DNA of 64,000 bases, taken from positions 1 through 64,000 of IMG/VR virus record IMGVR_UViG_3300025085_000013. The stretch is one strand, 5' to 3'. A model generated the notes under the pieces. It was given only the letters and a program-made list of their open reading frames with translations. It had not been told where the DNA came from and made no database searches. This document shows, piece by piece, positions 3,845-62,326 of the stretch; the stretch's first letter is position 1, and each line of letters begins with the position of its first letter. The position numbers and the translations under genes are program-made. Source of the stretch: a virus.

Positions 3845-4072
3845 TTATTTTACTTGAAGAAGATCCATAAACTTATCAAACGATAAAAGTAATACTTTCT
3901 TCTTTTTCTTCTTTTTTCCTTCAGGATCATCTCCACTACCAACCTTTTGTGTAGCAAAAGAATTTGCCGATCCAGGATCACCTGGAAGCTCAACAGCCCC
4001 CATACCCTGTACATCCATGTTAGGATTTAAGCCAACGGTTCCTGCTTCATTTTCATTTACGTCTTTAGACAT
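3845..4072 (-). CDS. Small hypothetical protein with poly-Lys stretch
   Basis: A 75-residue protein with an acidic/Gly-rich first half, a run of seven lysines (about residues 53-59), then a hydrophobic-aromatic tail LLLSFDKFMDLLQVK. The tail loosely resembles the LxxFxxFL pattern at the N-termini of several neighbours, but it is C-terminal and lacks the Glu that would mark a cleavage site. It starts one base inside the end of the nucleotidyltransferase gene, so translation is probably coupled. Function unknown. Confidence 0.55.
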   Translation of the reverse strand: MSKDVNENEAGTVGLNPNMDVQGMGAVELPGDPGSANSFATQKVGSGDDPEGKKKKKKKVLLLSFDKFMDLLQVK

Positions 4073-5190
4073 TATTTAATATTCTTTTTTAAATAAGTTG
4101 TACAAAAGTTTAATAATTCTTTTCTTGCTGGAGCAATATCACTCTTTTCTGTTGCAGGTCCACTTTTCCATTCTATCCAACCTTCTACTATTTGTTCTAA
4201 GCCTTCTTCCATTCCAGGCATAAGCTCAATATACTCTTCATTGATCTTTGATTCTTCAACAGTAAAGTTATTCAGTGATTTTAAATTTTTCATGTTGTTA
4301 TTTTTAATTTCTTTTATTGGTTCTAATATATTTTGTAATGGCTTATAAAAACTATGTATACTTTTAGGAGTCATTTTCTTAAAAGTCTTTTCATCATCTA
4401 TCTTTAACGCATTACGAACTTTAGATGCTGAAATGTTATCATCAGTTCTAAAAATCTCAAAACCCTTAAAATCAGGATCTACTCCTAATTGATCTCGGTA
4501 TGATTGTTTGTCAATCATTGCACCGTATGATTTTTTTCTATCCGTCCCATATCCCCACATCACAGGTTCATAAGCAGGTCTTGCTGCTGCAAACATTGTA
4601 TCAATTGCACCATTAGGAACTACAATAGCAGTTTCTAAAAATGGATATTGTTTTGCCATCTTAGCAAACATTGCTTGTTGCATTTCTTCATCAAACGGCC
4701 TTTTCTCAGGATCGTTGTTTTTTCCTCTAACTAAAAATACAACTACAGGCTTTCCATTTTCTTTATACATTTTTTCAAATACTTTAACATGACCTAATGT
4801 AAAAGGTTGGAATCTACCAACAAACATATTAACCTTTTTCTTACCTTGTTCTTTATGAGGAACTTTTAAAGCTTCATTAATTGGAGCGGTTGCAGTTCTT
4901 ACTCTATGACCATAAGGAGATAATGAATATCTCTTAATCCCAGTTTCATCTTCACTAATATTAAATAATCCTACATTTCTTTTAAGCCATCTTTTGTGAG
5001 CCTTTATTTCAGATAAGATATTATTAACCTCCTCTTCAGTTAAATGACCATCAGCAACAGCATCTAAAATAGCAGAACGAACTCTAGCAGCAGTAGATAC
5101 ATTTTTAGCTGGGTGAGCCTCAGTGTACCTTCTCTTAACAGTTACTCTCCTTTCATTTAAGAAATCATTTAAATCATTTATGTTATCCAT
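4072..5190 (-). CDS. NMNAT-like/cytidylyltransferase-fold nucleotidyltransferase with extra N- and C-terminal regions
   Basis: The core (about residues 118-285) is a HxGH-type nucleotidylyltransferase: GRFQPFTLGH at 125-134 (the first His of HxGH is Thr here) and the C-terminal phosphate-binding motif ISASKVR at 253-259. Such enzymes join a nucleotide to NMN, pantetheine phosphate, choline phosphate or similar; the substrate cannot be read from the sequence. Residues 1-117 are an extra basic/helical domain opening with LNDFLNERR, which matches the capsid-targeting-like motif seen on neighbours. After the core, Met300 begins a second such motif (LNNFTVEES) and a 74-residue tail with WKSGPATEKSDI, which looks like a small protein fused in frame or made from an internal start. 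NAD-related function is possible because T4-like phages such as KVP40 carry NMNAT genes. Confidence 0.75.
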   Translation of the reverse strand: MDNINDLNDFLNERRVTVKRRYTEAHPAKNVSTAARVRSAILDAVADGHLTEEEVNNILSEIKAHKRWLKRNVGLFNISEDETGIKRYSLSPYGHRVRTATAPINEALKVPHKEQGKKKVNMFVGRFQPFTLGHVKVFEKMYKENGKPVVVFLVRGKNNDPEKRPFDEEMQQAMFAKMAKQYPFLETAIVVPNGAIDTMFAAARPAYEPVMWGYGTDRKKSYGAMIDKQSYRDQLGVDPDFKGFEIFRTDDNISASKVRNALKIDDEKTFKKMTPKSIHSFYKPLQNILEPIKEIKNNNMKNLKSLNNFTVEESKINEEYIELMPGMEEGLEQIVEGWIEWKSGPATEKSDIAPARKELLNFCTTYLKKNIK

Positions 5191-5201
5191 ACCTTATATA
5201 T

Positions 5202-8012
5202 TTACTTTACCATTTTGATTCCCATCATAGATGAAAAAGGATTCCACACCATACCTTTTTGTTGAAACTTAAAGTTAGCACTACTAAACTTTTTAGTTTT
5301 AAATATGAAAGCACCTGCTTTAACTTTAGTATCTAAATATACCTGTTTAACATCAGTTACTTTTTGTGTAAGCTGAGTTAGTACATCAGAATATTTTTCA
5401 TTTAATGCATTTGCAGTTTCTACCATAATAGGATAGAAAATCATCCCTACTCTGTTAGAATCATTTTTTTCCATTCTCTCCTCATATTCTTTTGCATATT
5501 TGGTCGAATCAATTTTACCTCTCCATGCTCCAGTTTTTTCTGATAGTGTTTTTATAAATGATTTAAATTTATTTTGATCTTCTTTAAATAATTCATCTAA
5601 AAATTTAATTAAGGCTTCTCTTGTTACAGATTTTTGATTTAGGTTAGCTTGCTGTAAAACATATGAATAGCCTGATCCTTGGTTAGGTCCTAGTACATCA
5701 GCAGCTAAATTCATCACTTTATTATATGTTGTTGAATTTCTATTTAATTCATATGGGTTTAGCCATACCTTAACTACATCTTCATAAAATGTTGTTTGAT
5801 CTACATCTAACATAAGGCCATCATTTCTTTTAGCATTATCAATCATTTTCATTATTGAAGATCCACTCGGTGTACCTCCGCCTCCTGCCTTAGAAGAAAC
5901 TTTATATTGATCAAATTCAAAATCAACTAATGCTTCATTTGAATTCTTAGGATATGCTAATCCTTCTCCCGTATCTTTAATTATATTAAACATCATTAAT
6001 GCCCCTAACACTTCACCAAAGTCATTAGAAAAATTAGCTACAGAAACTTGATCTATTCCATCAAAGAAAGAAGCACCAACTTTATATACTATAGGAGTTC
6101 CACTAGAAGCATAGACTTCAAAATCTGAAAAGGTGCCAACTTTATTTTTTAATACTACTTGCATAGAATCTTTAATGAATTGTTTATAATTGTCAGGGTA
6201 AGATGTGTTATCTATAAACTGATTTACTTTAGTAACAACCGCTACTCCTGTTTTATAGGTAGTACTTGCAAGATCCATTGCATCAGGAGTTAAATCTTTT
6301 CCTTTTATTACTGCTGCTTCGCCTGTCTTTGCACTTACTTTATAACGATTGGTTAGAAAAATAGTATCTCCTCTTTTAAAGTCTTGTCCTAATATTTGTT
6401 TATTAGCCTTTAATGTTATTTTATAAGTATGAAATTGACCAGAAAAGGTTTTGGCAACATCTTTATGGTAATGCCCGCTAGGAAAGCCCTCTATCTTATA
6501 TGCGGATGTAGGGACTTTTAAAGCTTTTAAATATTTCTGAATGTTTTCTTCGGCAGTACCATCATTTGCTCCAAAATTAGCTCTTACATATTCTGGGCTA
6601 TATTTAGGACCTGCAGAATCTCTTCTTGTTTGTGGGAAAGTTTTTTCATAATGCTTTAACCAATTAGCCTGTCTTTCTTTTACGTTAGGCTGTTTCTTTG
6701 CTTCATTTAAAACATCAACCTTTGCTAGGTTAATAAAATTATTATAATCCAATACTTTATCTTCAATTAATAATTCTTCAGCATTAGGTAAAAGAGATTC
6801 ATTAGTTGATTTAATTTTTAAGTAATCATCAAAAGTTTTAAATTTGCCATCATCCTTTGTTTGAATTACATCGGTTACTTTATTTACCATTTTATTAAAA
6901 TCTTCAATAACTGATGGTGTCATAATATTACCGGCATTCTTTCTTTTCTTTTTTAAAGAGCCTAACATTATTTTAAATAAGTCTTTTAGCTTAGGATTAC
7001 TATTAAGGATATCTTTAGTTCTTTGGCTTGGTATTAATTCTACATTTAAATCAAATTCTTTACCTTTAGCAAACTCAGCTTTTTCAATATCAATCTTTGC
7101 AATATCTTTTCCTCTTTTGGTTACATAGTCATTAAATATGTTTGAAACTAATTCTATGTATCTCATATCTTCACTATCCCCTAAAATCTCATGCTTCTTA
7201 ATTCCTCTTTCTTCTATAAATGCTAAAAGATCCAACAAAATAATTTCATTAATATCAGCAGGAGTCTTCCTCATATCTATAGGCTCCTTTTCTTTCATTA
7301 AATTAATTGTATAAGGATCTATTAACTTAGCAGCAATAACTTGTTTAGTACCAGATTTATAAAATTTAAATACAATAGATTCTATAGGCTTCTTAAGATC
7401 ATTTTGTAAAGTAGTTGATTGAATATTAGGATTTAGAATTCTAAGTAAATATTCAGCAAATGAATTAGTACTAAAAATCTCAGCATGATCTTCTTTTGGT
7501 GTTTCTAAAAATTCTTTAATCTTTTTCTTTTGATCTTCTGTTAAGTAACCTTTAAATAATGGAAGTAATGGAGTAACACCTAATGCGTTTGCCCAGTCTC
7601 TAATTACTCTAGGATCTTCTATAACCTTTGTAACTTTGCCAGCTGGTGTCATTACTTTAATATGAGTAAGTACTAAATTGTTTTTAGGTAGCTTATCATA
7701 AGTAATAATACCAGGATTAGTATTTACAAAATATTGAAAACAGAACTTCCAATTTTCAGGAATAGAAGAAAGATTTTTGTTAGTTACAGATTTTATAAAA
7801 TTAATAGGCTTTTCATAATAAACCATTATAGTCCTATCAATTAAGTTAATAGGCTTTTGATTTCCACCTTTATAAAAAGTAATTCCTTCACCGCCTTTTT
7901 TAAATGAAAATGAAGAACCTGATAGTTTTTCTGAAACTACAAGATAATCCTTAAAAAGATCTTCTATTAATTGTTGCCCTGCATCTTTATAAATCTGAGT
8001 TAACTCTTTCAT
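5202..8012 (-). CDS. Large protein with N-terminal DNA/RNA-ligase-like nucleotidyltransferase domain and possible nuclease-like C-terminal domain
   Basis: The first ~235 residues show covalent nucleotidyltransferase motifs in the expected order: motif I EKLSG with the candidate nucleotide-accepting Lys29, a motif III-like WKFCFQYFV (89-97, Gln where Glu is usual), motif IV IESIVFKF (210-217) and motif V AAKLIDP (227-233). The remaining ~700 residues are unrelated to ligases I know. A segment at 660-720 has a helix with Glu667, then VDFEFDQYKVSSKAGGGG, which loosely fits a PD-(D/E)xK-type nuclease core, but this is weak. It is preceded by a rho-independent terminator and its own AT-rich promoter-like box, so it is probably a separate transcription unit from the ligase-like gene upstream. 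A role in end-joining, repair or host nucleic-acid attack is inference. Confidence 0.65.
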   Translation of the reverse strand: MKELTQIYKDAGQQLIEDLFKDYLVVSEKLSGSSFSFKKGGEGITFYKGGNQKPINLIDRTIMVYYEKPINFIKSVTNKNLSSIPENWKFCFQYFVNTNPGIITYDKLPKNNLVLTHIKVMTPAGKVTKVIEDPRVIRDWANALGVTPLLPLFKGYLTEDQKKKIKEFLETPKEDHAEIFSTNSFAEYLLRILNPNIQSTTLQNDLKKPIESIVFKFYKSGTKQVIAAKLIDPYTINLMKEKEPIDMRKTPADINEIILLDLLAFIEERGIKKHEILGDSEDMRYIELVSNIFNDYVTKRGKDIAKIDIEKAEFAKGKEFDLNVELIPSQRTKDILNSNPKLKDLFKIMLGSLKKKRKNAGNIMTPSVIEDFNKMVNKVTDVIQTKDDGKFKTFDDYLKIKSTNESLLPNAEELLIEDKVLDYNNFINLAKVDVLNEAKKQPNVKERQANWLKHYEKTFPQTRRDSAGPKYSPEYVRANFGANDGTAEENIQKYLKALKVPTSAYKIEGFPSGHYHKDVAKTFSGQFHTYKITLKANKQILGQDFKRGDTIFLTNRYKVSAKTGEAAVIKGKDLTPDAMDLASTTYKTGVAVVTKVNQFIDNTSYPDNYKQFIKDSMQVVLKNKVGTFSDFEVYASSGTPIVYKVGASFFDGIDQVSVANFSNDFGEVLGALMMFNIIKDTGEGLAYPKNSNEALVDFEFDQYKVSSKAGGGGTPSGSSIMKMIDNAKRNDGLMLDVDQTTFYEDVVKVWLNPYELNRNSTTYNKVMNLAADVLGPNQGSGYSYVLQQANLNQKSVTREALIKFLDELFKEDQNKFKSFIKTLSEKTGAWRGKIDSTKYAKEYEERMEKNDSNRVGMIFYPIMVETANALNEKYSDVLTQLTQKVTDVKQVYLDTKVKAGAFIFKTKKFSSANFKFQQKGMVWNPFSSMMGIKMVK

Positions 8013-8030
8013 TTGCTTATTTTATATTGT

Positions 8031-8044
8031 CAATTTATATATTC
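8031..8044 (-). promoter_or_regulatory. Putative promoter box upstream of the 936-aa protein
   Basis: Minus strand GAATATATAAATTG sits about 19 nt before the start at 8012 and directly downstream of a terminator, so the gene needs its own promoter. It is close to the T4 late consensus TATAAATA. Confidence 0.45.
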
Positions 8045-8061
8045 TTTAGTTTAATAGCTAT

Positions 8062-8093
8062 ATAAAAAAAGGATAGCATAATACCTACCCCTT
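8062..8093 (-). terminator. Rho-independent terminator
   Basis: On the minus strand a 9-bp stem (AAGGGGTAG with CTATCCTTT, two G-U pairs) closes an 8-nt loop and runs into a tract of seven T. It lies about 90 nt after the stop of the ligase-like gene and before the promoter box of the 936-aa gene. Confidence 0.7.
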
Positions 8094-8159
8094 ATCTTAC
8101 TCTATTATCTTCAGAGTATATACAAATATCACAAATGCTAACTCTTAATACAGGTGATC

Positions 8160-8175
8160 TATATAGGCCTATATA
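8160..8175. repeat. Perfect 16-bp palindrome
   Basis: TATATAGGCCTATATA, starting 5 nt after the stop codon of the ligase-like gene. It could be a hairpin protecting the 3' end or a binding site; no T-tract follows it. Confidence 0.6.
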
Positions 8176-8180
8176 CTATT

Positions 8181-9452
8181 TTATCTACCGAACTTAATGA
8201 TACCTAATAGTTGATTAATTGCAGCAAAGGTTCCAGTTAGTTTGTAAATTTTTCCTTTATATTTAAATACTATACCTTCAGTTGGAAATATAGATTCTAT
8301 TCCACCAATTCTATCGAGCCTTGCTAACTCAGCCTCTACCTTTCTTACTTGGTCAGCGCCACCAGTCTTTTTAATCTTACTCCCTGCTGTTTGTATTTGT
8401 GTTCTTAATCTTTGGGCTTCATCAGATGGATTAGCAGCTAAAAAGTCAGACGCATTTTTTAAAATCACTGAACCTAGTTCCAAGAACAGATCTTCAAAAG
8501 GTCTAATGTTTTCTTTATATTTTTTAGCAACATCTTCTTTATCAAACTTTTTAACTAACGCAGCTTCTTTAGGTCCAGTTTGTTTGGCGAGAGATCTCAT
8601 GTTTAAGCTCTTCTTATCTCCGTATGCCCATCGCTTAAGTAAACCTTCTTTTACATCTTGTGATAGTGAAGGAAATTGTTTATTAATTAATTCTCTCCAC
8701 CACATTTCATGATATTTAGAAACCTCATCACTATCAGTTAAACCATATCTTTTTTCTAAAGCATTAACTTGATTAATAAATCTTTTCTTATTTGCAGTAA
8801 AATCTAAATCTTTTTGTAATTTAATAGCCTTAGGTGGAATTATTTTAAATGTTTTACCAATATCAGATTCAACCTTTTTAAGTATATCTGCGATTTCTTT
8901 TGCAGGTTTATTATTAGTACCTGTAATATTACCATTTCCATCCGTTTCTTTTATACCATGAAATTGAATAACATCTGTATCATAATGAATAACATTAGGG
9001 TTTTGTGAATAGATTAACTCCATGTTCATAAAGTCTTTTCCATTCTTAAAATATTTTTCCTGGTCAGCTGGAGAAAGGTTCATTAATAATCTAGCCAAAT
9101 CTTGTGCAGCAAATTGAAAAGTATCTTGTACTAATTTACTAGGATGACCTTCAAATTTATTCTTAAATTCAGAAAGAGTCATTGGATTCTTTAACTCTGT
9201 TTTGTTTCTTGCAAATTTAACTTCGCCATCTTGAATAGTAGCAAATGCATTTTGACCATCAGTCTTTTCGGTAGCCTCTTCTTCAAAGTTTAATTCACCT
9301 CTAAGACCAGCATCTATCATTGCCTTAAAATCACCAAAGGTTAAATCCTTATCATCAAATGGATGAGCCATGTGACCAGCGGCGCCACCTTCAAAAAGAA
9401 ATGGCTGACCTTTGTCAGTCAGCCATTCCTCGAATAATTTTATATGTTTCAT
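8181..9452 (-). CDS. Predicted covalent nucleotidyltransferase (DNA/RNA ligase-like) with capsid-targeting-like N-terminus
   Basis: Ligase-superfamily motifs occur in order: motif I EKTDGQN with candidate nucleophile Lys63, motif III FMNMELIY (141-148), IIIa-like VIQFHGI (161-167), motif IV EGIVFKY (392-398) and motif V KIYKLTG (401-407). The region 180-385 between IIIa and IV is a large helical insert, unlike standard DNA ligases, and no OB-fold follows motif V, so the protein ends right after the catalytic core. The N-terminus MKHIKLFEEWL followed by FLFEGG (18-23) resembles T4 internal-protein targeting peptides and shares MKHIKLFE with the next upstream gene (9455-9841). It sits in a run of such proteins. 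Joining or capping activity and packaging into the capsid are inferences; the canonical replication ligase is at 61004-62326. Confidence 0.7.
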   Translation of the reverse strand: MKHIKLFEEWLTDKGQPFLFEGGAAGHMAHPFDDKDLTFGDFKAMIDAGLRGELNFEEEATEKTDGQNAFATIQDGEVKFARNKTELKNPMTLSEFKNKFEGHPSKLVQDTFQFAAQDLARLLMNLSPADQEKYFKNGKDFMNMELIYSQNPNVIHYDTDVIQFHGIKETDGNGNITGTNNKPAKEIADILKKVESDIGKTFKIIPPKAIKLQKDLDFTANKKRFINQVNALEKRYGLTDSDEVSKYHEMWWRELINKQFPSLSQDVKEGLLKRWAYGDKKSLNMRSLAKQTGPKEAALVKKFDKEDVAKKYKENIRPFEDLFLELGSVILKNASDFLAANPSDEAQRLRTQIQTAGSKIKKTGGADQVRKVEAELARLDRIGGIESIFPTEGIVFKYKGKIYKLTGTFAAINQLLGIIKFGR

Positions 9453-9454
9453 GG

Positions 9455-9841
9455 TTATTTTTTAAGTTTAGCCAATTTCTCTTTAGCCATTTCAATATCA
9501 GCAAGCAAGCCACCTTCTTCTTCTTCCAATTCTTGAATTCTATAATCATCAGGATCTTCATCTTCAATCTCAGCTATATCCATTCTAATCATTTCTATGC
9601 GATCATCCATTTCCTTGATCTCATCCTCCAACTTTTTAATTTCTTCGGAATTATCATCAGATCCACCTTTTAGTTGATCTTCCTTTGCCTTTACCTTTTT
9701 ATATAAAGGATTGTCAGGATCTCCTAATATTGTCTTTACGGTAACTTCTCTACCACTTTTAGGATTCTTGATCTTACTATTATAAAATTTATCTAAATCG
9801 GATTCTAATAGAAATTGTTCAAATAATTTAATATGTTTCAT
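9455..9841 (-). CDS. Small acidic coiled-coil protein with capsid-targeting-like N-terminus
   Basis: 128 residues. It opens MKHIKLFEQFLLES, nearly the same as the downstream ligase-like protein, with a candidate prohead-protease site after the Glu of FLLE. Residues ~62-128 are a charged heptad-type coiled coil rich in Glu, Lys, Ile and Leu. The downstream gene follows after 2 nt. By analogy with T4 core/internal proteins it may be a scaffold-core or internal head protein; I know no specific homologue. Confidence 0.7.
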   Translation of the reverse strand: MKHIKLFEQFLLESDLDKFYNSKIKNPKSGREVTVKTILGDPDNPLYKKVKAKEDQLKGGSDDNSEEIKKLEDEIKEMDDRIEMIRMDIAEIEDEDPDDYRIQELEEEEGGLLADIEMAKEKLAKLKK

Positions 9842-9848
9842 GTTTTAA

Positions 9849-10187
9849 TTATTTTGTATATGCAAAAAGATCTTCACCATCGTCAAATACAACTACATTC
9901 TTACCTTTATATTTGCCGTGATATGCTTTATCATAAATAGTAGAATCTATAGGAAGAGATTTCATTCCTCCAATAACATCAAATAAATCAGAACCTTCAT
10001 CTTCGGTAGTATCTGTCATTATCATGATATCATCAGCTTTTCTGGCCTTAAGAGCTTTAAGAACAGTAGCAATACCTTTTTCATTTTTCTTTACATCTTC
10101 ACCAGCAGTATCTACTGCATCGGCGAAAGTAAACCTTTCATTTAAAGATTCATTTACAAAATCTGCAAACTTTTTTATATTACTCAT
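9849..10187 (-). CDS. Small protein with capsid-targeting-like N-terminus
   Basis: 112 residues beginning MSNIKKFADFVNESLNE; FVNE followed by Ser fits the (L/I/V)-x-E processing pattern of T4 prohead protease substrates. The rest (about 20-112) is a compact alpha/beta-looking acidic domain ending in NVVVFDDGEDLFAYTK. No catalytic motif is recognised. It lies between the coiled-coil and acidic polyprotein-like genes, so a head-internal protein is the working guess. Confidence 0.65.
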   Translation of the reverse strand: MSNIKKFADFVNESLNERFTFADAVDTAGEDVKKNEKGIATVLKALKARKADDIMIMTDTTEDEGSDLFDVIGGMKSLPIDSTIYDKAYHGKYKGKNVVVFDDGEDLFAYTK

Positions 10188-10205
10188 ATCTTTAGTTTTA
10201 ATTTA

Positions 10206-11753
10206 TTATGATCCCATCGTAGATTGTAAAGCTCCAACCATTGCTCCATAATCTTCACCATACTTCTTAAGTAATCCTTCAGCAGTTTCAGTTGCCTTAG
10301 TTTCATCAAAGTCATCTCCGAATGCATCTTTTAGAATTGCCATTGCATATTCTTTAAATTCATCAGCAGAAGTAATATCCTTTTCATTAATCTTAGCTTC
10401 TCCAACTAATGCTTCGCCTTTTGATTCAGGTTGTACTTTTACCTTACCCATATTCATTATGTCTCCAGCAATACCTGCGGCAGATTCAGAACCATCGCCC
10501 ATTTCTGCAGGAACTTCAGTAGCATCCTTAAGATCATCAGCTTCACCCTTTACTTCAGTTGTAATATTTTGATCTTTAGTAACTAATTCTTCACCTTTTG
10601 ATTCAGGTTGTTCTTTTACCTTACCCATATCCATTATATCTCCAGCAATACCAGCAGCGGTTTCAGAACCGTCACCTTTCTCTGCAGGAATAGCAAGACC
10701 ATCATCACCAGCAACTTCATCAGCAATTTCATCACCTTCAACTTTAGTAATTACTTCACCAACACCTTCTTCTACTGATTCATCTTCTTCAGTATCTTCA
10801 GCTTCTTCTACTTCTTCATCTTCCTCTTCTACATAAGCTTCAGTTACAAAGTTTGAAAAAGACATGATTCTTGATTCATCTTTCTTTTCTTCATCTTCAT
10901 CATATTCAACATCTTTCTTTAATGCATCAATTTCAGAGTCATCAGATTTAACAGCTCCTTTATAATGATCAGCTTTTTCTTTGTCATCCTCAGAATCAAC
11001 TTTCTTATCACCTTTATCTTCTAGCTCATCACCTTCTTTTTCATCTTCCATACCTTTAGATTCTTCATCTTCAGAAAGAGGCTCTTTAGACGCTGCTATA
11101 GGAACAGCATAGTCTTCAGGTTCTTCATCATCATCGTGATATTTAACATTCTTATTTACGGTAACTTCTTTTTCTTTAATAAAATCTTCAAAGGCCATAA
11201 TTCTTCTAGTAGCAGCTGGTGTTTCTTCTTCTTCAGCAGCAACATCAACACCATCTTCATCTTTAACTTCATCAGCTTCAGCAGGAACATCAGCAGTAAT
11301 TTCAGGATCGTCAGATACCTTATCACCTGCTTTATCTTCTATATCTTTAGGTTCGCCTTTAGCTAATACTTCATCTTCGATATCTTTCGCGGTATCTTCT
11401 TCAACTTCATCAGTTTCAGCGACTTCACCAGATGCACCAGTTTCTTTATCTTCTTCCTTTTCACCTTCTTCACCTTCTAATGATTTAGGTTCGCCTTTCT
11501 TTTTAACTTCATCAGCTATATCTTCGGCTCTATCTTCTTCAAGCTCATCTTCAGAGATATCTTGTTTAGGAGTAAAATCCTTTAATAAACCTTCTAATTT
11601 AGTTAGAAGATTTTTTTCTTTCTTTAATTCGTCAACGCTTTCGTAACCGAGTTTTTTAACAAGATCCATTACTGCATCGTGATTAACATCTGCCGATTCA
11701 TTAATTGAACCTTCGGCCTTTGTCATCATTGAAAACTTTTTGATTGGTTTCAT
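10206..11753 (-). CDS. Very acidic polyprotein-like protein with three capsid-targeting-like motifs (prohead core candidate)
   Basis: 515 residues dominated by Glu and Asp. Capsid-targeting-like segments occur at the start (MKPIKKFSMMTKAEGSINES) and internally at 185-194 (IMAFEDFIKE) and 296-305 (IMSFSNFVTE), the two internal ones both preceded by Arg. Two ~36-residue repeats lie at 355-390 and 414-449 (core GDGSE-AAGIAGDIM-MGKVK), and a shorter repeat around 73-92 and 118-137 (DIADEVKKKGEPK / DIEDEVLAKGEPK). Residues 460-515 form a probable helical domain. T4 gp67 and gp22 are acidic core proteins chopped by the prohead protease into peptides; this protein looks like several such units in one chain. 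Function is inferred from that analogy. Confidence 0.7.
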   Translation of the reverse strand: MKPIKKFSMMTKAEGSINESADVNHDAVMDLVKKLGYESVDELKKEKNLLTKLEGLLKDFTPKQDISEDELEEDRAEDIADEVKKKGEPKSLEGEEGEKEEDKETGASGEVAETDEVEEDTAKDIEDEVLAKGEPKDIEDKAGDKVSDDPEITADVPAEADEVKDEDGVDVAAEEEETPAATRRIMAFEDFIKEKEVTVNKNVKYHDDDEEPEDYAVPIAASKEPLSEDEESKGMEDEKEGDELEDKGDKKVDSEDDKEKADHYKGAVKSDDSEIDALKKDVEYDEDEEKKDESRIMSFSNFVTEAYVEEEDEEVEEAEDTEEDESVEEGVGEVITKVEGDEIADEVAGDDGLAIPAEKGDGSETAAGIAGDIMDMGKVKEQPESKGEELVTKDQNITTEVKGEADDLKDATEVPAEMGDGSESAAGIAGDIMNMGKVKVQPESKGEALVGEAKINEKDITSADEFKEYAMAILKDAFGDDFDETKATETAEGLLKKYGEDYGAMVGALQSTMGS

Positions 11754-11778
11754 TATAATTATCTTTTTTTGATTCTTT

Positions 11779-11790
11779 TTTTATATATCC
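11779..11790 (-). promoter_or_regulatory. Putative late-promoter box
   Basis: Minus strand GGATATATAAAA, 25 nt before the start of the acidic core-protein gene and just after the uvsW stop. Confidence 0.35.
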
Positions 11791-11816
11791 ATCTCTCATA
11801 AGAAAGATATTCTATA

Positions 11817-13319
11817 TTAGTATCTAACATTTTGCACCTCAAATGGAAACTTTTCCTCTTTGTAAATTTTTCTTCTTTCCATACCATGTCTGTATATGTA
11901 ATTTACCCAGTCATGATCATCTACTTTATAACGGAAATCATCAATAAAATCATATATTTTTACAACGTCTTTAGATGAGTGCTTTCTTAATCCTCTACCG
12001 ATTGATTGTCTAATGATCACTTCGGATTTAAATGATTCAGTAAAAAATATGTTGTGTATATTTTTAATAGATATACCGGTTGAGAATGTACCATACGAAG
12101 CTACAATAATAACATCATCATTTTTTTCCATTCTTTTTTTGAACTCTTCTCTAAAATCAGATTTAACAGAACCGTCTACATAATAAACTTTCTTATCTGT
12201 TATTGCTCGAAGTTTTTGGTATATCTTTTCACCATAAGCTATTTTATGAAATAGCACTAGTGAATTAGATGTAGACTTTTTAATTACTTGACAAACGAAA
12301 TCTAACCTCTTTTCGCTTTCATTAATAAAGTTCTGTTCTAAACTAAATAGCTTTTGTCTATCATATGGGTTTTTAGATAATGATGAAAATGCTTCTTTTT
12401 GAGCATCGGTTGCATATTCCATGTGGATTTGCAATACTTTACATTTTGCAATATGACCTTCTTCTTGTAAGTGAGCAGCTTTTACTTGAGTTACTAATGG
12501 GCCCATTGCCGACATTAAGCTTAGTCTATTTACAGTTCCTCTTTTAGGAATAGTACCGCTCAAACCAAATCTGTAGTCACAATGCCAGCATTTATCCATT
12601 ATCTTTTGAATTGAATTTGCTTTTGCTTTATGAGTTTCATCTACAAAGACTGCATCAAATTGGCTAAAGTATTCCTCGTCCTTTTTAGTTAATGATTGGT
12701 AAGTACCTATAACAACATTAGAACTCTTTCGTAATTTTACGCCTGCATAAATTTGTTGAATCTTAATAGGTACCCTGCCTTTATTGTATTCTTCAAAGTC
12801 TCCGCTTGCTTGAACAACTAAACTTACATTAGGTACTATCATTAAGATTTTCTTTTTACCTAACTGTTCCATCATATAAGCAACCACCATAAATGAAATT
12901 AAAGTTTTACCTGCAGATGTTGCTAATTCAGCCAAACACCGTCTATACTTTAAAATCTTTATCGCTGCATCAATTTGATAATCTCTAGGCTTAATTTCAG
13001 ATGTAGCAAAAAACTCATCTACCCAAGATCTAAATATTTCTTCATCTATAGAAGTATCAAAAATATCAGTTATACCGTTTAATGTAAATTGATAATCATA
13101 TTCTTTACATATATCAATTACTTCTTTCCATAACCCTGCCGGAATTTTATTTCTTTTGATAAATGAAATATTACCATCCCATACCTTTTTCTTTACTAGA
13201 GGGTGAAATCTCCAACCTTCTATTTTCTTAGTAAGACTAGATTTTAATTGCTCATATTCCAATTCGGTGCATGAATCAATTACTAAAAACTTTTTATTTT
13301 CCGACAGAGATAGTTCCAT
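11817..13319 (-). CDS. uvsW: UvsW-type SF2 DNA/RNA helicase
   Basis: 500 residues, close to T4 UvsW. An N-terminal domain (1-105) precedes the helicase core: Q-like PRDYQIDA (111-118), Walker A ATSAGKTL (133-140), DETH box (227-230), SGT (254-256), and motif VI QSIGRGLRK near residue 450. T4 UvsW unwinds branched DNA and R-loops and shifts the phage from origin- to recombination-dependent replication. Its start codon overlaps the stop of the UvsY-like gene by one base, the same gene pairing as T4 uvsW/uvsY. Confidence 0.93.
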   Translation of the reverse strand: MELSLSENKKFLVIDSCTELEYEQLKSSLTKKIEGWRFHPLVKKKVWDGNISFIKRNKIPAGLWKEVIDICKEYDYQFTLNGITDIFDTSIDEEIFRSWVDEFFATSEIKPRDYQIDAAIKILKYRRCLAELATSAGKTLISFMVVAYMMEQLGKKKILMIVPNVSLVVQASGDFEEYNKGRVPIKIQQIYAGVKLRKSSNVVIGTYQSLTKKDEEYFSQFDAVFVDETHKAKANSIQKIMDKCWHCDYRFGLSGTIPKRGTVNRLSLMSAMGPLVTQVKAAHLQEEGHIAKCKVLQIHMEYATDAQKEAFSSLSKNPYDRQKLFSLEQNFINESEKRLDFVCQVIKKSTSNSLVLFHKIAYGEKIYQKLRAITDKKVYYVDGSVKSDFREEFKKRMEKNDDVIIVASYGTFSTGISIKNIHNIFFTESFKSEVIIRQSIGRGLRKHSSKDVVKIYDFIDDFRYKVDDHDWVNYIYRHGMERRKIYKEEKFPFEVQNVRY

Positions 13320-43009: not shown

Positions 43010-44308
43010 TTATTTAATTTTTTCTATTTCTATCACCTCAGTATTATCACCAAACCTAGCAAGCTTTGTAGCTCTACCTTGTCTAAATATACCTCCAACC
43101 ATTTCTCCACTAAAAACTCCTCTTTTGCCAAATACATAACTATCCTCACATATTACATTTCTACTAACATAAGATTCTTCTATCTTGGAATCTTCTGCAA
43201 CAGTAGCCCCAAATAAGTTAGATTCAAATATTGATGAATTTTTTAAATCGCAGCTAAAAATATCACAGTTAACAATATTGCCTTGAATTATAGAATCAAC
43301 TATATCAATTCCATTTATTTCAAAACATCTCATTAATTTAGCATCCTTTATCTGTATTCTTCCAGTGTCCGCGTCATAATTAATAAAGCCTTCATTCATA
43401 TCAGCCTTAGTAATTAAATCAAAAATCTTTTCGCGTATTTTAGGATAATACATTTCTACAATTTGATCTGCTGTTTTTAGATCAATCATTAAATGAATAT
43501 TTGGAAACTTTTCTTTAAATGAAGAATATGTTCTATAAGATTCAATAACAGTTTTATGCTTTTCTAAAATCTTATCTAAAACTTTTAGGTCAGATTCACT
43601 ATATTGAGGATTAACTAAAGTCTCATATAATGAAGTAATAAAATGTTCGGTTAGTGAGAGTATAGTAGAATATCTATTTTCATAATCCTTTCCACCTAAG
43701 TATCTAAATTCAATATAACCTTTAGGTACTTTACTAAAATTAATACCATAATACTTTTCTTTGACAAACATATAGTTTTTCCAAAGATTTTTTTCTGGTG
43801 ATGGTTGTGTCATACCACTTAAAGGTACAATAAACTTTATAGATTTTGCATAAACAGAATCTCTTCTGTTTGGAAAGGCTTCATATACTTTGTTTTCATC
43901 AAAGTTAAGTACAAATTTACCTATATCTAAATTAGACATATTTGTAATAGGGCCTAGCTTTTTACCATCAAACGCAAGGTTTATGTGGATAGAGCATCTT
44001 TCATTAGTAGAGCCATTTTCTCTAATCCATTTTAAAGCTTTAGCCATAACTAATTTAGCTTCAACAAATGGAAGTGGGCCGGTTACCAATTCAATCATAC
44101 CGGTACCACCAGAATTATCTGGTTCTAATTTAAAAGTTTCTTCGGTTGGGGTAAAGTCACTATGAGCCTTTTCCTCTATTCTGATTTTCTTATTAAGAGC
44201 TTGTGATAAGCTATCCTTCGTGAGATCTAAATTTTCATTTGAAAAAAACTCAAATTCAAATCCGATCTTTGAAGAATGTATAGCATTAAGTTGTTCGTTA
44301 GAATACAT
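43010..44308 (-). CDS. Amidoligase-family protein with C-terminal pentapeptide-like beta-helix
   Basis: 432 residues. Residues 15-210 show the GS-fold amidoligase pattern: KIGFEFEF (14-21), EPDNSGGTGMIELVTGP (62-78), CSIHINL (105-111) and YIEFRYLGGKDY (198-209). These supply the metal- and ATP-binding Glu/His/Arg of carboxylate-amine ligases, which form amide bonds to peptides or cell-wall groups. From about 330 to 400 the sequence changes to short polar/hydrophobic repeats (IIQGNIVNCDIFSCDLKNSS, IFESNLFGA) like a pentapeptide or right-handed beta-helix. It is inside the baseplate operon. Possible roles are peptide tagging of virion or host proteins; the substrate is unknown. Confidence 0.72.
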   Translation of the reverse strand: MYSNEQLNAIHSSKIGFEFEFFSNENLDLTKDSLSQALNKKIRIEEKAHSDFTPTEETFKLEPDNSGGTGMIELVTGPLPFVEAKLVMAKALKWIRENGSTNERCSIHINLAFDGKKLGPITNMSNLDIGKFVLNFDENKVYEAFPNRRDSVYAKSIKFIVPLSGMTQPSPEKNLWKNYMFVKEKYYGINFSKVPKGYIEFRYLGGKDYENRYSTILSLTEHFITSLYETLVNPQYSESDLKVLDKILEKHKTVIESYRTYSSFKEKFPNIHLMIDLKTADQIVEMYYPKIREKIFDLITKADMNEGFINYDADTGRIQIKDAKLMRCFEINGIDIVDSIIQGNIVNCDIFSCDLKNSSIFESNLFGATVAEDSKIEESYVSRNVICEDSYVFGKRGVFSGEMVGGIFRQGRATKLARFGDNTEVIEIEKIK

Positions 44309-44350: not shown

Positions 44351-45523
44351 TTATACTAAGTTCATAGTGATCTTGCGATCGCTAACATTAACACTACCAA
44401 TCTTTACATTTATAATATCACCTTTACTAAGTTCAGTGTTCTTTAATTTAGTTCTATGAACAAGTCCACTTATCCCTTTTTCTAATTCGACGAACGCCCC
44501 ATATTTAGTAACCTTAGTAACCTTACCTTCGGTAACCATCATAGGTTTGTATTTTTCATCGGCACCATCCCATAAATCAATCTTAGGACCAGCTTGACTC
44601 AAGATAATTTTTCTATCTGATATTATTTCTTTTGCCCAGAAATTTATTTCGTCACCAGGTTTAATATTTCTATTATCAAATAAACCTAAAGTCGATTCAT
44701 CCAATTCATTTTTAGGTATTAATCCAGTAAGACATTCGTTAAACTCTGCAAAAATTCCAAACTTAGTAGCGCCAGTAACAATTCCAGTAATAGGTTCTTT
44801 AATTTCTTCTCTTAGAGTTTCAACCGCAGAAGGAATCATGGTTCTTAAATATTCTCTATGGGATACTACAATAGTTTTCTTTTCGTTTGAATATGTTATT
44901 GGCATTACTATTAATTCTTTACCTACTAACTTTTCAAAATTCTGTAATTTATTAAGACCACCTAATGACCCAGGCATAAAACATTCTACTCCACCAACTT
45001 CTACCCAATACCCACCGTGAATTAATTCTTTTACTTTACCAGTAAATCCGATCGTCTTATTTCCTATAGCATTATAAATTTCATTTCGTTTAACCTCATC
45101 CAATGCATCTCCAATTGATGCATATAATGTACCTTGTTTATGCTCTTTGACTTTAATGTCAATTACCATACCAATTTCTAGTTGGTCTACTACTTCTTTA
45201 GGTTCCTTGATTAAATTACAGATGGCTGTATTTTTTCTGGATATATCAATAAGAGCTTCTGTTTTTACTTCAACTTCCTCGCCATCTATTAATTGTGTTT
45301 CTTTCTTAATATATGAAATTTCACCTTGAGTAATGTAATTTCGTAATTCTTCAGATTTCTGTAATCGTTCAGCCTCATCGTCTGCTAAATCATACATTGA
45401 CATTGCATCGGCTGCATACATTTCAGTACACATTAATTTAGTTCCTTTAGGTACTTTAACTTTAATTACTTTAGTGTCAAATGGATCATCGCTTAATTGG
45501 ATGGTGATTTCTTGTTCAATCAT
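44351..45523 (-). CDS. Ribosomal protein S1-like protein with about four S1 (OB) repeats
   Basis: 390 residues. After an N-terminal helical region (1-110) come S1-type RNA-binding repeats at roughly 115-160, 162-225 (GFTGKVKELIHGGYWVEVGG), 245-315 (PITGIVTGATKFGIFAEF, ending DRKIILSQ) and 330-390 (TEGKVTKVTKYGAFVELEKG, ending SDRKITMNLV). Shorter than bacterial S1 (usually six repeats). S1 helps ribosomes engage mRNAs with weak ribosome sites, so a phage version may favour viral mRNAs or bind RNA for another reason. It lies unusually among virion genes. Confidence 0.85.
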   Translation of the reverse strand: MIEQEITIQLSDDPFDTKVIKVKVPKGTKLMCTEMYAADAMSMYDLADDEAERLQKSEELRNYITQGEISYIKKETQLIDGEEVEVKTEALIDISRKNTAICNLIKEPKEVVDQLEIGMVIDIKVKEHKQGTLYASIGDALDEVKRNEIYNAIGNKTIGFTGKVKELIHGGYWVEVGGVECFMPGSLGGLNKLQNFEKLVGKELIVMPITYSNEKKTIVVSHREYLRTMIPSAVETLREEIKEPITGIVTGATKFGIFAEFNECLTGLIPKNELDESTLGLFDNRNIKPGDEINFWAKEIISDRKIILSQAGPKIDLWDGADEKYKPMMVTEGKVTKVTKYGAFVELEKGISGLVHRTKLKNTELSKGDIINVKIGSVNVSDRKITMNLV

Positions 45524-54344: not shown

Positions 54345-57300
54345 TTATGATGGATCACTGATAAATACCTTATATGTAATATTGACTTCATCTAGCTCCA
54401 AAGTTCCACCTTTACTAGCTGCAAACCCCAAGAAAATCCTTGTAGTTGATGGATTAACGGGTACACTAATATTAAAGCTTGCTGTGCCACATAAGAATTT
54501 TCCAGCATTTACATCTTGGTCGTCAAAGACGGTAAATTGAGCATTAGAGAATGTTATACCATCATCAGGCCCTAAGCCAGTTAAGGCCATCATGTCATCG
54601 CCGGTTCCGCCGGTTGATGGAGGAATTATATCACCACATTCCCACGTCCACATTTTCACATGAAAATCACCAGTATTTGAAACACCTGTATTATTTGTAA
54701 AAACAGTGAAGTACACATTGTATTGTTTACTACCAGCTACAACCGATTCATTTGGTACTACACCACAGGTCATGGTTGTAGGTCTTGCTTGATCAGCCCT
54801 GGTAGGCCCATGAGCTCCCACAGATGTTATTTCACCAATTACTATACCGCCTGGGTAAGAACCTCCTTGTACCGTCCTAGCCCAAATCGAATCAGACCAA
54901 CCACCTAGGAGTGCCAATCCGCCACTAGAAGCCGCCGCATCACCTACCTGCCATCCAGCAGTATTGTAATTAGGAAGACCATCACTTACTACTATAGAAC
55001 TTTCAAATTGAGGAGCAATTGAAGTTCCGCTGCCTCCTGTTATACCTTGTGTACCTTGTGTACCAGTAGTACCTTGTACTCCTGTTATGTTATAAGATAT
55101 TGAATATGTATCACCTGCAGCAAATTGCCCGTCACCAGCAATATATTGAAGAGCGATTAAGAGGGAATTGGTACCGGAGGTTGGATTACCATTTACTAAA
55201 TAGATACCGAATTGTGACGGATCATCTACTTTATATAAAGCTATTTGATCACCTGAAGAGATTCCTGCTAACCAACCATCAACGACAGAGGCATTAGCAT
55301 CAGTTTTTGAAATATTTACAAGTGATGCTAATGATGGGTCATTATTAGAAATATTAAAATCATTATTTGCAGGTGCACCTGCACCGGAAGTTGAATTACA
55401 AATCCATCTTAAAGCATTTGCACCATCTACACCATTTACACCTACACCTTGAATACCTTGAATACCTTGGGTACCTTGAATACCTTGAATACCTTGTGTT
55501 CCTGCAGTACCTGGCTGACTAACACAATAAACTACTTCATCATCTCCACTAAAAGTTTGATTAGGTCCACTAACCCATACAACAGTATAAACTAAATTTC
55601 CTGTCGGTGTTGTCACTAGAGTTACTTCATAATTATCAGGATTAGAATAAGTACCATCAGAACTTTGGGAAAATGAAAGTATTGAGCCTACTACTGCCGC
55701 TTGATTATTACTAGAAGTTGGACTAATAAACACCTGTGTTACTAAATTAGCAGTTGCATTATTAACAGCGAATGTCCCAGGAGCGGTACCACCTATTGTA
55801 AATACCTCTCTATTTATTAGTTCACAACCTGGTCCAACTATTAGTGGACCTGCCTGGTATGTACATACAGTATAAACAGGGCTAGGATTATTAGCTAAAA
55901 GAAAAGCACCACTAATTATAGTAATATTATAAATTATACCATTAGAAGGTTGAAGGGCCGCAGGAATTTTACTGTCAACCCTAAGTATCATCTTATTAGC
56001 TGGTGTAGCTGGATCTTGTATAGTAATCGTAGCGTTTTCATTTAATGCATTATCTCCAATAAACTGACAACCTGAAGTATTACCGATGAATACCTGCGTT
56101 GGTGTTGAGTTATCAACTTGTACATATTGTTGTACAGTAGATGAAAATCCATTATTAAAAAACGCAGTAGGAGTAAAACACCCACCTTCTGCGCCGGTTG
56201 TTCCTTGTGTTCCTTGATCACCAGTTATACCTTGTGTTCCTTGTAAACCAGTGATACCTTGAATACCTTGAGTTCCAGTACCTTCAATACCTTGTAAACC
56301 TTGAGTTCCTTGTAAACCAGTGATACCTTGAATACCTTGAGTACCTTGAGTTCCTGTGCCTTCAATACCTTGAGTTCCTTGTAAACCTTGAATACCTTGT
56401 AAACCAGTTATACCTTGTGTTCCTTGTAAACCAGTGATACCTTGAATACCTTGAATTCCAGTTCCAGTTATACCTTGGGTTCCTTGTGTTCCTTGTAAAC
56501 CGGTTATACCTTGAATACCTTGAGTTCCTGTACCTTCAATACCTTGTGTACCTTGAGTTCCTTGTAAACCAGTGATACCTTGTAAACCAGTTATACCTTG
56601 TATACCGGTACCAGTTATACCTTGTGTTCCTTGTGTTCCTTGAATACCAGTGATACCTTGAATACCTTGAGTTCCAGTTCCAGTTATACCTTGGGTTCCT
56701 TGCGTTCCTTGTGCTGAAACACTACCTGCTATACCTTGTATACCTTGTAAACCAGTTATACCTTGAGTTCCAGTTATACCTTGTATACCGGTACCAGTTA
56801 TACCTTGTGTTCCTTGTGTTCCTTGAATACCAGTGATACCTTGAATGCCTTGTGTACCTGTACCTTCAATACCTTGTGTACCTTGAGTTCCTTGCAAACC
56901 AGTGATACCTTGAATACCTTGAGTTCCAGTTCCAGTTATACCTTGAGTTCCTTGTGTTCCTTGAGCCGAAACACTACCTGCTATACCTTGTATACCTTGT
57001 AAACCAATTATACCTTGAATACCCTGAGTTCCAGTTCCAGTTATACCTTGGGTTCCTTGTGTTCCTTGAGCCGAAACGCTACCTGCTATACCTTGTATAC
57101 CTTGTAAACCAGTTATACCCTGAGTTCCAGTTCCAGTAATACCTTGTGTACCTTGTGTTCCTTGAGCCGAAACGCTACCTGCTATACCTTGTATACCTTG
57201 TAAACCAGTTATACCTTGTGCACCTGTACATCCAGCGGTATCAAATCTAACTTCATATACATGATCCAGTGTTCCAATACCACTTGGGCCAGCAAGAAAA

Positions 57301-61003: not shown

Positions 61004-62326
61004 TTAACAATTTCTTCCATTTTCATATATATGTTTTACTACCGGGAATCTTAATGAATATCCACCATTCTGATTTTGACTTTCTTCAAAATATTGAACA
61101 GTTACAGTTTTACCAATTAGTTCATTATGATTATTAAGGTAATGTTCTCTTTGTTCTTTAGAGAATCCAGATCCAACACTTACTTTATTACCTTTATGTT
61201 CAATTATAATATTACTTAAACCTTCTTTCTCAACTTGTTTTCCATTTTCTGTCCATCGCATTGTACCGTTTATACATTCTAAAATTGTATATTCAGCATC
61301 ATGGAATTTTTTAACTTTTAAAAGATTATGACTTCTTTTACCTTCATAGCCAATATTCTTTCTAACCATGATTCCTTCAAACCCAGCCTCTTCGGCTTCT
61401 TTTGCCATTTCAGTAAATTGTTCTTCGGTAGTTAATTGTTCTTGTGGTAAGAATTCTAACATAGAAGATTTAATTTCTTCCGGTAAAATATCATAACCAT
61501 TCTTAAGTCTTTCAGTAAGAGGAGTAGTTCCAACCTTATCATCAAATTCATCTAAGGTTAAAAAATCAAATACAAAGAATTTAGGATTTTCAATTTGATG
61601 ATCCTTCTTTCTAATTTGTTTCATAATTCCTTGGAAGTCTTCATTACCATCTTTATCTACCATACAGATTTCTCCATCTAAAATAAAGTCTCCACCTATT
61701 TTAGAAATTTCATTTTCTAAATTACCTAAGGTAGTAAATTCTTTACCGTTCCTTGAAAAGAATGTTACAGTATTCATTTCTTTTCTACAGATACATCTTA
61801 CACCATCCAATTTTCTGGATCCGTACCATTCTCCACTTTGAAAATCTACTCTCTTAGGATTATATGCATTTGCTAAAGCGACTTTAAATGTTGGAATTAA
61901 ATCTGGGTGGACTGCCTTATTGATAGAGGTAGTACCACATCCCATATTAAGGTCTCGGTTTAGCATATAGTAAATAATATCTTCCCATTGTTTATTCTCT
62001 AGGACGAATCTATTTACATTTGCAATTGCAGTATGACCAGTGCATACCCTATTTCTTAAATCATCCAATAAGGTAAAGATACTACCGTATGTATTTGGGT
62101 GACCTAGTAAATCTGAATTCTTTTTACAATTCTTAGGAGTTACATTATACTTAAAATAAGGATTGTAGGTATAGAAGAAAACTTTCTGTAAGAATTCTCT
62201 ATCAGAATTTTCATCAGAGTTATCAGCATACTTTTTAAGAGTTGCAATTTTATGATTACCTGAAGAGGAAGATCGCATTTCATCCAAGAAGGATTGTAGA
62301 TAAGTAAGGTTTGTGTATTCAGTCAT
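61004..62326 (-). CDS. ATP-dependent DNA ligase (T4 gp30-type)
   Basis: 440 residues; T4 gp30 is 487. Motif I is SRKLDGVR with Lys172; motif III FILDGEI (215-221); IIIa FFVFDFL; motif IV FEGIMVRK; motif V LLKVKKF; then an OB-fold domain (NIIIEHKGNKVSVGSGF, VTVQYFEE). It seals nicks in replication and recombination. The start is preceded by a short AT-rich gap with a 19-nt hairpin. Confidence 0.94.
   Translation of the reverse strand: MTEYTNLTYLQSFLDEMRSSSSGNHKIATLKKYADNSDENSDREFLQKVFFYTYNPYFKYNVTPKNCKKNSDLLGHPNTYGSIFTLLDDLRNRVCTGHTAIANVNRFVLENKQWEDIIYYMLNRDLNMGCGTTSINKAVHPDLIPTFKVALANAYNPKRVDFQSGEWYGSRKLDGVRCICRKEMNTVTFFSRNGKEFTTLGNLENEISKIGGDFILDGEICMVDKDGNEDFQGIMKQIRKKDHQIENPKFFVFDFLTLDEFDDKVGTTPLTERLKNGYDILPEEIKSSMLEFLPQEQLTTEEQFTEMAKEAEEAGFEGIMVRKNIGYEGKRSHNLLKVKKFHDAEYTILECINGTMRWTENGKQVEKEGLSNIIIEHKGNKVSVGSGFSKEQREHYLNNHNELIGKTVTVQYFEESQNQNGGYSLRFPVVKHIYENGRNC

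Follow-up and report, generated by a model that had tools for sequence, protein, structure and literature searches.

The stretch of DNA analysed here (the window) comprises 64,000 nucleotides of a virus contig of 71.7 kb. It carries an uninterrupted reading frame for a protein that we designate LigA; the next gene begins with another ligase-like domain, LigB, and is followed by the gene for a HIGH-type transferase, CTPT (Table 1). When the window LigA was searched directly against Pfam, PHROGs, NCBIfam and PADLOC, none of them yielded a usable match, and the PDB sequences contained no relative; a PDB match to RsgI2 (E=0.0034) was discarded because a profile search did not reproduce it. At least 569 relatives of LigA were found in IMG/VR and three in annotated phage records, while 84,980 prokaryote genomes yielded a single match, located on a 20-kb MAG contig; the family is thus essentially viral. 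Pfam, PHROGs and NCBIfam contain no dedicated model for it, and its fused forms are carried in UniProt only under the name 'cytidyltransferase-like'. The window also encodes a separate ATP-dependent DNA ligase with an OB domain. The proposal of the sequence-only reading that LigA is a distinct enzyme beside a normal ligase is supported. Further genes of the window include one for a 390-aa protein (44351-45523) that, judged by eye, may consist of repeated S1-type RNA-binding domains, unusual for a phage, one for a 432-aa protein (43010-44308) that begins with GFEFEF and, again by eye, resembles proteins of the amidoligase type with a repeat-like C-terminus, and, amid structural genes, one for a 1645-aa protein (54345-59282) with long collagen-like GIQGTQGI repeats.

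Table 1. Positions in the window of LigA, its predicted features and the genes discussed with it.
Feature	Position	Strand	Basis
CTPT, HIGH-type cytidylyl/adenylyltransferase with CTS-like N-terminus MDNINDLNDFLNE	4072..5190	-	PF01467, E=1.9e-7; phrog_3041, E=8e-16
LigB gene, C-terminal region (residues 421-936); no recognised domain	5202..6752	-	no significant Pfam, PHROG or NCBIfam match
LigB, second RNA-ligase-like domain; N-terminal 380 aa of ORF 5202-8012	6873..8012	-	AF2, Foldseek, PF09414, motif decay
LigA, RNA-ligase-like covalent nucleotidyltransferase (predicted), 423 aa	8181..9452	-	intact ORF; fold prediction; weak PF09414 matches in relatives
LigA motif V, KLTG, residues 404-407; one invariant Lys	8232..8243	-	K404, T406, G407 in 65/65
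LigA motif IV, EGIVF, residues 392-396	8265..8279	-	E392, G393, V395, F396 invariant
LigA insert lying between motif IIIa and motif IV, entirely helical; residues ~218-381	8310..8801	-	AF2 secondary structure; IIIa-IV spacing 223-232
LigA motif III, Glu145	9018..9020	-	65/65
LigA motif I, EKTDG; predicted nucleotidylated Lys63 (codon 9264-9266)	9255..9269	-	E62, K63, D65, G66 in 65/65
LigA family signature, GGAAGHMAHPF, residues 22-32	9357..9389	-	G22, G23, G26, H27, M28, H30, P31 invariant (alignment A3)
LigA capsid-targeting-like leader MKHIKLFEEWLTD, residues 1-13	9414..9452	-	pattern match; disordered in AF2 model
Small neighbour gene, leader MKHIKLFEQFLLE nearly identical to that of LigA	9455..9841	-	leader pattern
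Small neighbour gene, CTS-like leader MSNIKKFADFVNE	9849..10187	-	leader pattern
Ordinary ATP-dependent DNA ligase, contrast to LigA	61004..62326	-	PF01068, E=3.4e-26; PF14743 OB domain, E=2.2e-11

The active site of LigA was assessed in an alignment of 65 diverse relatives (A3) with identities down to 37%. Residues E62, K63, D65, G66, R82, E145, F164, H165, E392, G393, V395 and K404 are invariant in all 65 proteins, and such invariance among diverse relatives argues against a chance occurrence of the ligase motifs. These follow one another as E62-K63-T64-D65-G66 (motif I), R82-N83, E145 (motif III), F164-H165 (motif IIIa), E392-G393-x-V395-F396 (motif IV) and K404 (motif V), which is the order found in RNA and DNA ligases. 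The sequence-only reading had listed motifs I (with Lys63), III, IIIa, IV and V in this order and had staked its case on the conservation of Lys63 in homologues; the alignment bears out both. Motif V does not contain a K-x-K pair, since K404 alone is invariant and position 402 is occupied by T, I, V, M, L or S. This pair is present in T4 Rnl1 and Rnl2 and is not universal across the superfamily. After K404, the chain continues for 19 residues in the window protein and for 15-19 residues across the family, so that the short tail noticed earlier is real, but its length had been put slightly too low at about 16 residues. Motifs IIIa and IV are separated by about 226 residues (223-232 across the family), compared with about 84 residues in T4 Rnl2 (D120 to E204). 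A large insert does precede motif IV, as had been proposed, and is helical in the model described below; its excess over T4 Rnl2 amounts to about 140 residues, however, and not to about 200. LigA also differs from T4 Rnl2 in having no C-terminal domain of the Rnl2 type.

An AlphaFold2 model of LigA for which A3 served as the MSA reached a mean pLDDT of 87.6 and a pTM of 0.84. Residues 1-26 are disordered in this model (pLDDT < 50), and a single helix (409-421) is all that follows motif V. In the structure-based check that had been suggested for LigA, a Foldseek comparison of the model with the PDB, every one of the top 29 matches was a ligase of RNA or DNA, with fungal tRNA ligase and T4 Rnl1 in the lead (8rbj, E=0.014; 5tt6, 9do4 and 2c5u, E of about 0.02), each of them weak when taken individually (best E=0.014, TM-scores of about 0.25). 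A library of viral structures returned 'cytidyltransferase-like' fusions of the LigA family itself, followed mostly by uncharacterised phage proteins and then by RNA ligases. When the 65 relatives were scanned singly, PF09414 (RNA_ligase) weakly matched 28 of them (best E=0.0021), more than any other Pfam family among the matches listed. The window LigA itself gave no PF09414 match, let alone one above the curated cut-off, the sole match of this model in G000 being the DNA ligase, and PF09511, the T4 Rnl1 family, matched nowhere in the window's record. A profile comparison with T4 Rnl2 (PF09414) placed motif I of LigA in register (E=0.0055). While no single one of these items suffices, the Foldseek result, the PF09414 matches and the Rnl2 profile evidence combined make it almost certain that LigA possesses the modelled nucleotidyltransferase fold of the ligase type.

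The OB domain that follows motif V in ATP-dependent DNA ligases is absent from the LigA model, in agreement with the initial claim. Its lack is not strange, since a helical C-terminal domain takes its place in the nearest folds, those of T4 Rnl1 and of fungal tRNA ligase, as described for Trl1 (PMC6592678). No model of NAD+-dependent DNA ligases matched the window LigA in Pfam or NCBIfam, and none was among the 25 families listed, out of 47, for A3; a dependence on NAD via a domain Ia-like N-terminus (the HPFDD..LTF region) was considered and dropped as it had no profile match. LigA resembles T4 Rnl1 (PF09511) and the ligase domain Trl1-LIG of fungi in its motifs I, III, IIIa and IV and in combining a helical extra domain with the lack of an OB fold. 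However, this domain lies between motifs IIIa and IV in LigA, whereas it follows motif V in the two known enzymes; the 19 residues after motif V, the lone motif V Lys, the GGxxGHMxHPF signature, the fusion to a HIGH-type transferase and the capsid-type leader likewise set LigA apart from them. We view LigA as a putative covalent nucleotidyltransferase whose helical domain has been relocated. In T4 Rnl1, the helical C-terminal domain confers tRNA specificity and is dispensable for catalysis (PMC6592678), and the insert of LigA may, by analogy, do likewise from another position in the chain.

LigB resembles known ligases more closely in its predicted structure (AF2 pLDDT of 83.3): T4 Rnl2 was its best Foldseek match (E=4.1e-8), the first 47 matches were all ligases, and PF09414 matched 15 of 36 LigB relatives (best E=8.7e-7). 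A profile comparison between LigA and LigB gave no match, so that their relation is seen in fold and Pfam and not in direct sequence similarity. The motifs of the window LigB are decayed (EKLSG, FCFQYF, IESIVF, AAKLID). Residues D31, E93 and E211-G212 are canonical in about 26 of the 28 LigB domains that have no LigA within 4 kb; in contrast, the motif residues are altered in most of the 54 domains accompanied by LigA, among which the motif I Asp is kept once and the motif III Glu eight times. Where the two proteins co-occur, LigA retains all motifs and those of LigB are mostly decayed. Only two changes of the label 'LigA present' or 'LigA absent' are needed on the LigB tree, and the decay pattern therefore reflects few lineages. 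There are exceptions such as L198, in which K29 of LigB is replaced by N although its 68-kb fragment contains no LigA. Of the first 165 loci, only 19 contain the C-terminal region of the LigB gene in its window form. This region (window 5202-6752; L001-L050, L200-L261) is highly variable, giving total protein lengths of 926-1174 aa with differing sequences, or is replaced by CTPT, and LigB resembles a platform whose C-terminus can be swapped.

CTPT matches models of the NMN-adenylyltransferase type and shares the stretches GRFQPFTLGH and ISASKVR with phage HIGH adenylyltransferases of the NadR/NadM type, to which the P-loop kinase in some of its fusions also corresponds. In contrast to these enzymes, no Nudix domain was found in CTPT, it is fused to ligase-like domains, and the first His of its HxGH motif is often replaced. 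Among the unique LigA ORFs, 56 are fused to CTPT, 60 are standalone and 23 are cut by contig ends; CTPT lies near standalone LigA in 105 of 128 loci, within the sequence stretch covered. In Microcystis phage Mel-JY01, in LR756508 and in most of the distant relatives, LigA sits behind CTPT in one fused protein, which in LR756508 additionally has a ParB-like N-terminus, and in a separate set of relatives LigB stands in front of CTPT (49 unique ORFs). Large LigA fusions of 915-1543 aa (L109, L115, L155, L164, L143, L083) contain Zeta/AAA_33 P-loop kinase, Zn-protease-like or ParB-like domains and have a polyvalent-protein-like appearance; a search with the L083 polyprotein as query found no relatives, and a Pol-beta-like sequence seen by eye in the fusions L138 and L163 had no Pfam support. 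The contig L063 has two tandem copies of the pair formed by LigA and LigB-CTPT (6001-9145 and 10080-13242). LigA relatives share such large kinase, ParB-like, Zn-protease-like and transferase fusions with the polyvalent proteins of Iyer et al. (2017, PMC5512222), whereas the window LigA is a single-domain protein; the pair of a HIGH transferase and an RNA ligase is not described in the sections of that paper on which we drew.

The two ligase-like domains largely exclude each other when fused to CTPT. LigB is absent from all 21 records with a gene of the LigA-CTPT type. The search behind this count lacked a positive control specific to it, and many of the IMG/VR records concerned are short fragments, so that the count depends mainly on two long phage genomes (190-kb Mel-JY01 and 484-kb LR756508). 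Conversely, LigA is absent from 22 of 26 LigB records, among them contigs of 348-482 kb. These data suggest that the working unit consists of one intact ligase-type domain plus CTPT, and the neighbouring LigB together with the repeated fusion to CTPT, both overlooked in the sequence-only reading, shift the unit of interest from a single gene to a module. A literature search, which covered a minority of the subscription papers, found no report of a ligase/HIGH-transferase fusion; the module is widespread and apparently undescribed.

To describe the N-terminus of LigA, we scored the pattern [FYLW]..[FYWM][LIVMT].[ED] in the first 20 aa of proteins. It occurs in 7 of the 49 window genes as against 1.95% of internal 20-mers (about one gene expected), an excess that is somewhat inflated since the pattern was written after these leaders had been seen. 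Despite their diverging letters, each of the 31 distinct N-termini among standalone LigA relatives fits it, and so does MKHIKLFEEWLTD of the window protein, which is in line with the capsid-targeting-like start ascribed to LigA. T4 internal proteins and Alt possess a comparable short N-terminal leader that ends in hydrophobic-x-E/D, and several unrelated proteins of the window begin in this way (Table 1). CTPT contains a second, internal leader-like sequence, MKNLKSLNNFTVE, at residues 300-312. Window positions 10206-11753 encode a very acidic protein of 515 aa with an MKPIKKF start and the internal leader-like sequences MAFEDFIKE and MSFSNFVTE; it could be scaffold-like or multiply processed.

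Genes for head formation provide a further setting for these leaders. In the relative G050 (L286), a gene flanked by those for the portal protein (phrog_213, E=3e-71) and for the head maturation protease (phrog_207, E=1.9e-42) encodes a 123-aa protein whose start, MKYVKLFEQFIKE, almost matches the leader seen in the window clade. In T4, the genes for the prohead core occupy this slot between portal and prohead protease. The leader pattern shared with this protein lends indirect support to the idea of the sequence-only reading that LigA may be injected, while the data speak neither for nor against the protein modification that it also considered; overall, the features which that reading described are confirmed and its interpretation is supported in part. 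A prohead protease (PF03420) is present in five of nine LigA records, including the 181-kb G046, and was not found in the 71.7-kb record of the window, which is a fragment. The gene for a DNA end protector in G046 (L283 10891-11469; phrog_429, E=1e-16), a protein expected to travel with the DNA, opens with the leader-like LDLYLTE. Ten residues of the T4 CTS are enough for targeting; an Asp at position 10 permits targeting and blocks processing, as cleavage needs a residue other than D (PMC9026906). In the window clade, the last residue of the LigA leader is D, at the corresponding place. We regard the packaging of LigA into the virion, as suggested by this leader, as an evenly balanced proposition.

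LigA is very probably an enzyme that forms a covalent Lys63-NMP intermediate. Assigned to the RNA-ligase branch of covalent nucleotidyltransferases, in which it is divergent, it would take NMP from a nucleotide cofactor and transfer it to an end with a phosphate, in all likelihood that of an RNA; we lean slightly towards an RNA end as the substrate. The helical insert would supply substrate specificity, as the C-terminal domain of T4 Rnl1 does. LigA would act together with CTPT, its fusion partner in many phages, and LigB, whose canonical residues are lost where LigA is present, may act as a partner with a binding or structural role. By means of its leader, LigA would reach the prohead, and the protein would then enter the host with the DNA and repair or modify RNA ahead of phage gene expression. 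We consider this combination, a lysyl-NMP enzyme for RNA ends that works with CTPT, possibly with LigB, and is packaged and injected by virtue of its leader, to be the best explanation, with about an equal chance of being right or wrong as a whole. A catalytically dead LigA with a structural or regulatory role would fit the reduced motif V and the adjoining, clearly decaying LigB; all other motif residues, however, are kept in 65 of 65 relatives down to 37% identity, the opposite of decay, and this alternative is very improbable.

LigA might also be an ordinary nucleic-acid ligase, serving tRNA repair like T4 Rnl1 inside the cell after its expression, with a leader that is coincidental or mediates a scaffold interaction and without injection. 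Rnl1 and Trl1 are indeed its closest folds, and the window-type relatives G046-G048 and G050 have no Rnl1 or Rnl2 match, so that LigA could fill that role there. Yet the leader pattern is preserved in 31 of 31 distinct N-termini despite sequence divergence, and a leader of the same type is also encoded among the head genes of relatives; we judge this explanation to be rather unlikely. Phages reverse tRNA cleavage using RNA ligases together with kinases and transferases (PMC7824862). RlaP, an RNA-ligase-associated transferase, was present in only two of 14 records, and no tRNA genes were found within the window. Since Mel-JY01, LR756508 and several jumbo records encode an ordinary Rnl1 or Rnl2 besides LigA, the latter represents a specialised addition there and not a generic RNA ligase, and its substrate may differ; generic tRNA repair as its sole role is weakened by the ordinary Rnl1 and Rnl2 genes in many carriers. 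The same genes speak for a small-molecule or cofactor pathway, in which the product of CTPT would be a dinucleotide or an NDP compound (NAD-like or CDP-X) and LigA would attach NMP or that compound to an acceptor other than RNA (a protein, a DNA end or a metabolite). The matches of CTPT to NMN-adenylyltransferase-type models, the NadR-reminiscent Zeta/AAA_33 P-loop kinase in some fusions and the non-standard motif V of LigA point in this direction as well. The nearest folds and Pfam matches are specifically RNA ligases, however, a P-loop kinase with a ligase fits RNA end healing and sealing too, and no NAD-ligase domain is among the matches listed; such a pathway has, in our view, a minor though appreciable probability. 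We are likewise doubtful about, but do take into account, a capsid-delivered two-enzyme machine with exactly one active ligase-type domain, LigA and LigB being interchangeable, and a HIGH-type transferase, which would catalyse a novel joint reaction (for example, the modification of RNA or protein ends with a nucleotide-derived group just as infection takes place), LigB being retained as an inactive partner where LigA is present.

Under the preferred reading, LigA is a specialised enzyme acting on RNA ends that is plausibly packaged and injected. It represents an abundant viral enzyme family that has no profile of its own, and recognition of the ligase domain assigns to this family a concrete candidate active-site residue, Lys63. 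The recurrent fusion of ligase-type and HIGH-type domains, for which our literature search found no named precedent, points to a coupled reaction. The reciprocity of LigA and LigB constitutes a natural experiment in which the replacement of an enzyme and decay to a pseudoenzyme can be followed. If LigA is packaged, these phages would bring along enzymes for the repair or modification of RNA, ahead of the tRNA-cutting nucleases of their hosts.
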